A DNA stretch of 54,949 bases from Candidatus Binatia bacterium (GTDB lineage: Bacteria; Desulfobacterota; Binatia; UBA12015): positions 1 to 54,949 of the forward strand of contig JAIEPK010000625.1 of NCBI GenBank assembly GCA_019749875.1. Direction: 5' to 3'. Below are positions 29,866-38,105 of this stretch, in pieces (position 1 is the first letter of the stretch; the number at the start of each line of letters is the position of its first letter). A model generated the notes under the pieces. The model worked only from the letters and a program-made list of their open reading frames with translations, did not search any database and was not told the origin of the DNA. The translations under genes and the position numbers were made by a program.

Positions 29866-35197
<5,332 letters not shown>

Positions 35198-35282
35198 TCT
35201 GACGTGACGTGCAGGGCGCCGACACGCGACTCGCGGATGCTGGTTGCGAGGTGCGCGGCCGAGGGTTAGAGGTCGGCGGCCC

Positions 35283-35372
35283 GGAGAGGTGGCCGAGTCC
35301 GGTTGAAGGCGCACGACTCGAAATCGTGTGTGCCCTAAAAAGGCACCGTGGGTTCGAATCCCACCCTCTCCG
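35283..35372 (+). tRNA. tRNA-Ser(CGA)
   Basis: GGAGAGG/CCTCTCC acceptor, loop CTCGAAA, long variable arm, GGTTCGAATCC T-arm. Confidence 0.95.
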
Positions 35373-35655
35373 TTTCCTCCGTTCGTCGCGAGCCGCTCCA
35401 CAACGCCGGAGCGCCGCGTTAGAACGGGAACCAGTTCGTCCCCCGCGGCCGTCGTCGGGCCGCACGGGGTCATGCAGAGAAAGTTTCGGACAACCGCCGG
35501 CCGCTACTACGGAGGCGAACGGCGAGAACGGCCCCACAAGAGGAGGCGACAACGACCGCGAGGAGGTGCGGCTCCGCCGCACCGACGAGGCCCATCGGAG
35601 GACCGCAGTCAGTCGCGCAGCGACTGGCGAGGACCGCGCGGGGGCTAGATCAATA

Positions 35656-35743
35656 GGAGAGGTGCCGGAGTGGTCGAACGGGCACGACTGGAAATCGTGT
35701 GTACCCCAAAAGGGTACCGTGGGTTCGAATCCCACTCTCTCCG
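35656..35743 (+). tRNA. tRNA-Ser(GGA)
   Basis: GGAGAGG acceptor, loop CTGGAAA, long variable arm, GGTTCGAATCC. Confidence 0.95.
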
Positions 35744-35821
35744 CTTTTCAGAAATCTCGCGCCGGCAATTGCTCCCTCGGCAATCGTCCATTATCTACAG
35801 CGCACGACGGAAACGGCTCTC

Positions 35822-35895
35822 GCGGGTGTAGCTCAGTTGGCTAGAGCGCAACCTTGCCAAGGTTGAGGTCGCCGGTTCGACCCCGGTCACCCGCT
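35822..35895 (+). tRNA. tRNA-Gly(GCC)
   Basis: GCGGGTG/CACCCGC acceptor, loop TTGCCAA, GGTTCGACCCC. Confidence 0.95.
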
Positions 35896-35969
35896 CTCCC
35901 GTCCCCCCTCGGGGACGTCGGAGAACTTTTCGATTCCCTGCCGCAGGACGACCGTGTTAGGCGTCCGCC

Positions 35970-36440
35970 ATGGCGTCGAACACGTTATTCGTCAGCAACT
36001 TCCCGTTTACGACGACCGAAGACGAGCTACGCGGCACGTTTGAAGCCATGGGCGCGATCCAGAGCGTCCGCATCATCGTCGACCGGGACACCGGTCGCAG
36101 CCGGGGCTTCGCCTTCATCGAATTCTCCGACTCGCAGGCACTCGACCTCGCCATCGAGCAGCTGAACGAGACCGAGTTTCGGGGCCGCCGGCTCGTGGTC
36201 AGCAAGGCGCGCGGTCGTGACGGAGCGTCACCTCCGCCGCCACGCGCCGCGGCGAGCGGGGGGGACGGCACGTCGCCGTTCCGGCATCGCATCGTCATCG
36301 ACTGGAGCGACGAGGCGCACGCCTACACCGCGACGATTCCCGACCTCGGCGTCTCGGTGAACGGCGCCACCATCGAAGCCGCGCTCCGTCAAGCGCAAAC
36401 GCGCGCGCGCGGCTCGGCGTTCGGCAGCAGCCAGGCCTGA
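35970..36440 (+). CDS. RRM RNA-binding domain fused to HicB-like (UPF0150) C-terminal domain
   Basis: RNP2 LFVSNF, RNP1 RGFAFIEF; C-term IVIDWSDEAHAYTATIPDLGVSVNGATIEAALRQAQTRA. Confidence 0.85.
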   Translation: MASNTLFVSNFPFTTTEDELRGTFEAMGAIQSVRIIVDRDTGRSRGFAFIEFSDSQALDLAIEQLNETEFRGRRLVVSKARGRDGASPPPPRAAASGGDGTSPFRHRIVIDWSDEAHAYTATIPDLGVSVNGATIEAALRQAQTRARGSAFGSSQA

Positions 36441-36473: not shown

Positions 36474-37637
36474 ATGCCCGCAAATTTGCGCGAAGCGACC
36501 ATCGACCGCGCGCGCGTCGCGTGCGAACGAGGCCTGGCGATCCCCAGCCGCAGCCGAGGTGGTTGTGTGGAAGAGGTGCAGCGTTCTCCACTGACGGGCA
36601 AGCGAATCGGATTCACGGGGCGTTTGCTGTCCTGTGATCGACGTCTCGCGCATGAGCTCGTGCAGAGCGTCGGCGGTCTCGTCGCGCGCGGCCCCGCACT
36701 CGATTATCTGGTGCTCGGCAACGGCGGCCGCGCGGCGAACGACGTTGCAGGACGCACGCTCACCGAAGCGCAGTTTCTGAACCTCGTCTGCGCGGTGACG
36801 ACCGACACGCTGCCCGACCCGCCGGAGCTCACCGATCTCGTCCCGGCCCGGCATGCGGCGCGCCTCTATCCGCGCGTGACCTGGGCGCGGCGGCGCAGCC
36901 TCGCCAAGCACGGGCTCGTCAAGCCGGTCGCGCTGCCCAACGGGGTGGGATACCGCTTCGGCGATCTCCGCGTGCTGCGGCAGGTGGACGACATGCTCGG
37001 CGCGGGGATGTCGCTCGCACAGGTGATCCAGCGTCTTTCGCCAGCGGTGAAGGGGCAGCTCGAGTTCCGCTTCCCGATGGCCGCGATCAAGCCGAAGCCG
37101 CGACGGATCGCGGTGCGGCCCGAATCGGAGTCCGCGGACGCCTGGTTCGACGTCGGCTTCTGGGCCGACCGCGATCGCTCGAGCTACCCGACCGCGATCG
37201 CGGCCTATCAGCGTGCGCTGAAGATCGATCCCGGGCACGTTCCGTCGCTGATCAACCTCGGCAACATCTACTACGAGCTCGGCGAGTTCACGCGCGCGAG
37301 AGAGATGTACGCCCGCGCGACGTCGCTCGACGCCGAGAATCCCCGCACGCACTTCAACCTGGGCAATGCCTGCGACGAGATCGGCGACCTGCTCGGCGCC
37401 GCGCGGGCGTATCGCCGCGCCATCGCCCTCTGGCCAGGATATGCCGACGCGCACTTCAATCTCGCACTGGTCGCCGAGAAGCTGTCGAGCTGGTCGCTGG
37501 CGAGACGCCACTGGGAACGATTCCTCGATCTCGAGCCCGGCAGCGAATGGGCCGCTGTCGCACGCTCGCACCTCGCCGATGCAAAGCGCGCGGAGGCTGC
37601 GCGCGGCAAGCCGCAGCACGAGCGCACGCCGAGTTGA
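36474..37637 (+). CDS. BRCT-like + MerR-like HTH + TPR repeat protein
   Basis: LTGKRIGFTGRLLSCDRRLAHELVQSVGGLVARGPALDYLVLG; GVGYRFGDLRVLRQVDDMLGAGMSLAQVIQRL; four TPR-like repeats; start may be GTG 36567. Confidence 0.8.
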   Translation: MPANLREATIDRARVACERGLAIPSRSRGGCVEEVQRSPLTGKRIGFTGRLLSCDRRLAHELVQSVGGLVARGPALDYLVLGNGGRAANDVAGRTLTEAQFLNLVCAVTTDTLPDPPELTDLVPARHAARLYPRVTWARRRSLAKHGLVKPVALPNGVGYRFGDLRVLRQVDDMLGAGMSLAQVIQRLSPAVKGQLEFRFPMAAIKPKPRRIAVRPESESADAWFDVGFWADRDRSSYPTAIAAYQRALKIDPGHVPSLINLGNIYYELGEFTRAREMYARATSLDAENPRTHFNLGNACDEIGDLLGAARAYRRAIALWPGYADAHFNLALVAEKLSSWSLARRHWERFLDLEPGSEWAAVARSHLADAKRAEAARGKPQHERTPS

Positions 37638-37764: not shown

Positions 37765-37837
37765 GGCGGCGTACCCAAGTGGCTAAGGGGAAGGTCTGCA
37801 AAACCTTTATTCGTGAGTTCGATTCTCACCGCCGCCT
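37765..37837 (+). tRNA. tRNA-Cys(GCA)
   Basis: GGCGGCG/CGCCGCC acceptor, loop TCTGCAAAA, U discriminator. Confidence 0.93.
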
Positions 37838-38105
37838 CTCGCCGCATCGCGCGCGCCAGCCGAGCGCGGTCCGGCCCCGCGAGCCACGCGGACCCCAGGG
37901 AAGACCGCAAACTCTCTTGACCACACCGTGACCGGTCGGATAGGTCGGCGGTCGCTTTGTACGGTGCTTCCGCACGCGACATGGAGGTCTCGCTCGGCTC
38001 CAGCCGACGCCGCTACCTGCTGCAGCATCATCCACACCGCGCCCCGGGCGCCCCAGACACGCCGCGACGGGATCCGATCGCTTCGTCCGGCGAGCGAGAG
38101 TCGCG

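Follow-up and report, generated by a model that had tools for sequence, protein, structure and literature searches.

An RRM protein with a HicB/UPF0150-like C-terminal domain, conserved within one uncultured family of Binatia

To our knowledge, almost all that is known of HicB-fold domains concerns their role as antitoxins of HicA; fusions to DNA-binding or HicA domains are frequent. The locus analyzed here poses the question of what such a domain does when it is carried behind an RRM. An initial annotation of the window (the whole stretch of DNA under study, 54.9 kb in length) read one short ORF as an RRM fused to a HicB-like domain and proposed that the antitoxin fold may here serve in an RNA-targeted regulator. 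We found no co-mention of HicB and RRM in the open-access papers searched. In order to determine whether the fusion is real and what it may be for, we examined the domain identity, distribution, selection and genomic neighborhood of this gene, here called rrm-hicB.

The rrm-hicB gene and the identity of its two domains

The ORF at 35970-36440 is a genuine gene. It lies within a group of tRNA genes and has a TPR gene as its next neighbor; the relevant features of the window are the following.

35282-35373, forward strand: tRNA-Ser(cga), part of the conserved cluster
35656-35744, forward strand: tRNA-Ser(gga), part of the conserved cluster
35822-35896, forward strand: tRNA-Gly(gcc), directly upstream of rrm-hicB
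35953-35959, forward strand: CGTGnTA element, 17 nt before the rrm-hicB ATG, invariant and ungapped in seven orthologue leaders
35970-36440, forward strand: rrm-hicB ORF of 156 amino acids, with orthologues in eight other genomes of the family and dN/dS of at most 0.4 in both domains
35985-36194, forward strand: RRM domain, residues 6-75, RNP2 LFVSNF and RNP1 RGFAFIEF (Pfam RRM_1; AlphaFold model; Foldseek RRM matches)
36219-36278, forward strand: linker, residues 84-103, unconserved (15-45% amino acid identity between orthologues) and of low confidence (pLDDT mostly below 50)
36279-36419, forward strand: HicB/UPF0150-like beta-beta-beta-alpha domain, residues 104-150 (hhalign; PDB profile search; AlphaFold/Foldseek; HicB HMM)
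36474-37637, forward strand: TPR gene (Pfam/NCBIfam), next after rrm-hicB, candidate partner by synteny
37765-37838, forward strand: tRNA-Cys(gca), closing the cluster on its downstream side

The protein begins with MASNTLFVSNF, and its residues 6-75 match Pfam RRM_1 with an E-value of 5.2e-22; the RRM fold is also matched by Foldseek. Both RNP motifs are retained across the orthologues, RNP2 being unreadable only in one frameshifted copy (G001). The canonical N-terminal RRM claimed by the initial annotation is thus borne out, as are its ORF, coordinates, RNP motifs and C-terminal sequence. The tRNA-Gly(gcc) gene, which it had placed just upstream, ends at 35896, 73 nt before rrm-hicB.

The assignment of the C-terminus required stronger tests than the original match by eye, which is not decisive alone because single sequences match Pfam HicB_lk_antitox only below its curated cut-off (E=0.0016-0.014; at best 19 bits, for the window sequence, against a cut-off of 27). 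This sub-threshold match carries no weight in the identification that follows. When the C-terminal profile of the family was aligned by hhalign with 14 HicA-linked HicB proteins, picked independently by Pfam search and HicA adjacency, the probability of homology was 94.8% (E=5e-8), compared with a maximum of 17.6% among 40 column-shuffled controls. A second set of seven HicBs gave 98.3%, but this set is not independent because it was picked by likeness to the query profile. Against all PDB chains, the three top matches of the family profile were the UPF0150 protein TTHA1756 (8e-5) and the HicB structures 6g1c and 6g1n (0.07 and 0.14). An HMM built from HicBs only, including both sets, picked nothing except RRM fusions (best E about 1e-8) among 1527 ORFs of at least 35 amino acids in the window and seven orthologous neighborhoods, and did not report the divergent copy from G008. 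Matches to the RRM dominate a Foldseek search with the full-length AlphaFold model, and for this reason the C-terminal domain was folded alone. Modeled from family sequences only, it forms a confident beta-beta-beta-alpha unit (pLDDT 88.7) whose first-ranking Foldseek match is again TTHA1756 (2yzt; probability 1.00, TM 0.65, E=0.04); lower in the list stands the antitoxin 3k6q, with a TM of 0.60 and an rmsd of 1.4 but an E-value of 4. Profile and structure methods together secure the homology of this domain to HicB/UPF0150, in agreement with the partial RNase H fold that had been claimed for it. A match to TIGR02448 (NCBIfam, E=0.003) was dismissed as a chance match, since no other method backs it.

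Homology of fold does not make the domain a standard HicB antitoxin. In a joint alignment with HicBs the fused domain has no LPGC turn and ends after helix alpha-1. The helix itself is kept and carries Arg140, which is invariant and specific to the family; Arg107, at the start of strand beta-1, is invariant as well, and there are seven invariant columns in all, among them P124, L126, G127, A138 and R140. The closest HicB relative is a compact type of about 80 amino acids. This compact type (EIIIYWSxEDxAYIAEVPELPGCAADG...PEPKGRLLYA; L160-L178) is found repeatedly in the class, in many cases directly downstream of hicA.

The two invariant arginines, one of them on alpha-1, together with a flexible linker of the kind typical of tandem nucleic-acid modules, would suit a role of the domain in RNA contact, as a second module by which the footprint of the RRM is extended or gated. 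However, RNA binding by a HicB/UPF0150 domain is not described in the literature surveyed and other bacterial Rbps consist of an RRM without a second folded domain, so we regard such a role as unlikely.

Distribution of the fusion and selection on its parts

Full-length orthologues are present in nine of the 14 genomes of the uncultured family to which the window belongs (G000, G001, G003, G005, G006, G008, G009, G010 and G012), and identical loci also occur in records of the MAGs UBA12015 and OFTM293 (Deltaproteobacteria). Searches of 148 genomes of the class and 395 of the phylum, the latter at a strict cut-off that distant cases may escape, gave no full-length match outside the family. Among GTDB species contigs (scanned with peptide seeds, which may likewise miss distant cases), IMG/VR, plasmids and phages, matches outside the family were to the RRM only, with none spanning the HicB-like domain. 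Other bacterial RRM homologues align only as far as about residue 80-110. Conservation of the C-terminus among RRM homologues, on which the initial annotation had staked its reading, therefore holds within one family and not among other bacterial RRM proteins, and the survey of RRM-HicB co-occurrence that it suggested finds the combination in this family and in none of the other genomes and contigs searched. The parts are known; their joint architecture appears to be new, as judged from the searches made.

Within the family, the RRM and the HicB-like domain are both under purifying selection. Over eight genome pairs, dN/dS (Nei-Gojobori) ranges from 0.07 to 0.38 in the RRM and from 0.06 to 0.40 in the HicB-like domain, while the linker is far looser, with an amino acid identity of 15-45% and a dN/dS of up to about 1 where defined. 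Low dN/dS in the C-terminal domain next to a divergent linker indicates that the domain is translated and selected. The fusion is thus real and conserved: its C-terminus has the HicB fold, and the domain is conserved within the family. This bears directly on the idea of a gene-fusion relic, in which the C-terminal domain merely stabilizes the protein or prevents its degradation. Truncation of the domain, its Pfam score under the cut-off, its loss from (or failure to reach) one genus of the family, g2, and an apparent frameshift near the start of the G001 gene would all fit a relic, but purifying selection as strong as in the RRM, despite drift in the linker, and the seven invariant columns, argue against it and make it improbable.

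In the G001 copy (L010, 432-920), which comes from the sister species, the first residues are out of frame and the remainder is under purifying selection. The frameshift is likely either a sequencing or assembly error or the mark of a young pseudogene.

The HicA partner and the conserved gene cluster

The initial annotation had remarked that no hicA lies nearby. A HicA profile search of the ORFs in the window and in seven orthologous neighborhoods gave no match, which upholds the remark. Its suggested search for an unlinked hicA did find two such genes elsewhere in the host genome, one adjoined by a clear cognate hicB (C255) and one by a weaker HicB-like neighbor (C594); many HicAs of the family likewise have an adjoining HicB-like ORF. 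No HicA was found at E of 1e-3 or below anywhere in three fusion-bearing genomes that are 99% (G003), 98% (G005) and 96% (G010) complete. Since HicA is not detectable in these three genomes, its neutralization is unlikely as the conserved function of the fusion, with the proviso that divergent HicAs or assembly gaps could hide a partner. Of the features that define a HicAB system, an adjacent or fused hicA, the LPGC turn and the segment after alpha-1 are absent, and PADLOC returned no match for the protein.

These observations also weigh on the possibility of a trans-acting antitoxin, in which a HicA encoded elsewhere would still be the target of the HicB-like domain, to be bound and blocked by it, and the RRM would hold this complex on RNA or shield transcripts. 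In the HicB-HicA complex, helix alpha-1 of HicB packs on the beta-sheet of HicA (PMC10865869), and this HicA-facing helix is the part that was kept; the host genome has its two hicA genes, and the domain is closest in sequence to HicBs that frequently have a HicA partner. Nevertheless, the three nearly complete genomes with the fusion and no detected HicA, the existing HicB-like neighbors of many HicAs, and the loss of the LPGC turn and of everything after alpha-1 make a trans-acting antitoxin quite unlikely. A toxin-antitoxin remnant whose toxin was lost next door was rejected, rrm-hicB being inherited vertically as part of a tRNA/TPR cluster.

In seven genomes (G000, G001, G003, G005, G006, G010 and G012) this cluster has the order tRNA-Ser(gga), tRNA-Gly(gcc), rrm-hicB, TPR gene, tRNA-Cys(gca). 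It is led by tRNA-Ser(cga) in five of the seven; in the other two (G001 and G003) the contigs begin about 130 nt before tRNA-Ser(gga), and the contig of G008 ends before any upstream tRNA. The TPR gene adjoins rrm-hicB in all nine genomes that carry the latter. It is otherwise almost confined to the family, lies between tRNA-Gly (or rrm-hicB) and tRNA-Cys, and encodes TPR repeats, along with a weak MerR-type HTH and an N-terminal segment that weakly resembles BRCT. In the window, 34 nt separate rrm-hicB from the ATG of the TPR gene, and no terminator-like site was found between them. In genus g2 (G002 and G007) the cluster is present and the TPR gene follows straight after tRNA-Gly, without rrm-hicB; the contig of a third member (G011) starts too near the locus for absence to be judged. 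The partnership of the two genes is therefore not obligatory. A tree of the TPR proteins, built in order to distinguish gain from loss in g2, did not separate the deep forks.

The invariant CGTGnTA element before rrm-hicB recurs at the same 17-nt spacing before aceE (pyruvate dehydrogenase E1), at 32549 on the reverse strand of the window. Equal spacing before both genes suggests a leaderless promoter, and CGTGnTA may be the extended -10 element of leaderless mRNAs in this lineage.

Given this arrangement, the RRM might bind the TPR mRNA or neighboring tRNA precursors, with the HicB-like domain dimerizing the protein, so that rrm-hicB would regulate its own cluster. Consistent with this, rrm-hicB stands between tRNA-Gly and the TPR gene on every contig that extends far enough, always adjoins the TPR gene, and is followed in the window by a short gap without a terminator-like site. 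Conserved synteny, however, is equally expected of any gene inherited vertically next to tRNA genes, and the conserved promoter-like element before rrm-hicB suggests a separate start of transcription. We consider regulation of the cluster in this manner quite improbable.

Proposed role and comparison with known systems

The reading that we favor, at a probability of about 0.5, is that of a single-RRM Rbp with a HicB-derived tail for protein docking, the docking being argued from the fold only. The protein would belong with the ordinary bacterial Rbps, but with a short HicB/UPF0150-derived domain, joined through a flexible linker, in place of the Gly/Arg-rich tail that is usual there; this exchange is seen in one uncultured family. 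Single-stranded RNA would presumably be the ligand of the RRM, and the HicB-like domain would serve as a docking or self-association module through which that RNA reaches a partner protein. The fused domain keeps alpha-1, the helix of HicB that packs on the beta-sheet of the partner in HicAB complexes. The adjacent TPR protein would be the first candidate partner. In a cyanobacterial RRM protein the C-terminal region can direct or redirect function (PMC9333190).

The original proposal, an antitoxin fold turned into an RNA-targeted regulator, is compatible with all results, the regulatory activity being putative. The more specific proposal that the antitoxin-derived domain lets the RRM protein bring a partner to selected transcripts, be it the TPR protein or one with a dsRBD fold such as a HicA-like protein, seems rather unlikely at present; if true, it would describe a bacterial RNA-targeting adaptor made of toxin-antitoxin parts. 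A selected, vertically inherited RRM fusion in genomes without detectable HicA suggests a use of the HicB fold beyond toxin neutralization. The fusion also adds a folded C-terminal module to the bacterial RRM proteins, a group in which cyanobacterial tails can direct function.

Three known systems invite comparison. TTHA1756 of Thermus thermophilus (UPF0150, PDB 2yzt) is the best match to the fused domain by both sequence profile and fold: the two share a beta-beta-beta-alpha core and lack the same single residue in the PDL-G turn (VPEL-HA versus VPDL-GV). Unlike rrm-hicB, TTHA1756 is a stand-alone protein of 67 amino acids without an RRM. HicB antitoxins (Pfam PF15919; B. pseudomallei HicB 6g1n; the compact EIIIYWSxEDxAYIAEVPELPGC type) have a homologous beta1-beta2-beta3-alpha1 unit and have the motif WSD..Y.A.VP.L..A.G.T.E.A in common with the fused domain. 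The fused domain differs from them in sitting behind an RRM and in having no LPGC turn, post-alpha-1 segment, recognizable DNA-binding domain or linked hicA. It has the beta-beta-beta-alpha partial RNase H core of the HicB/UPF0150 group, and a single sequence of it falls short of the curated Pfam cut-off. Lastly, single-RRM Rbps (cyanobacterial Rbp1, Rbp2 and Rbp3; NCBIfam NF058537) resemble rrm-hicB in having one N-terminal RRM followed by a short C-terminal region, and rrm-hicB matches NF058537 at 1.9e-26, with 92 bits against a cut-off of 100. The RRM fold and the aromatic residues of RNP1 and RNP2 are present in rrm-hicB. The difference lies in the C-terminal region, which is a Gly-rich tail or an Rbp3 type II tail in the cyanobacterial proteins and a folded HicB-like domain here.
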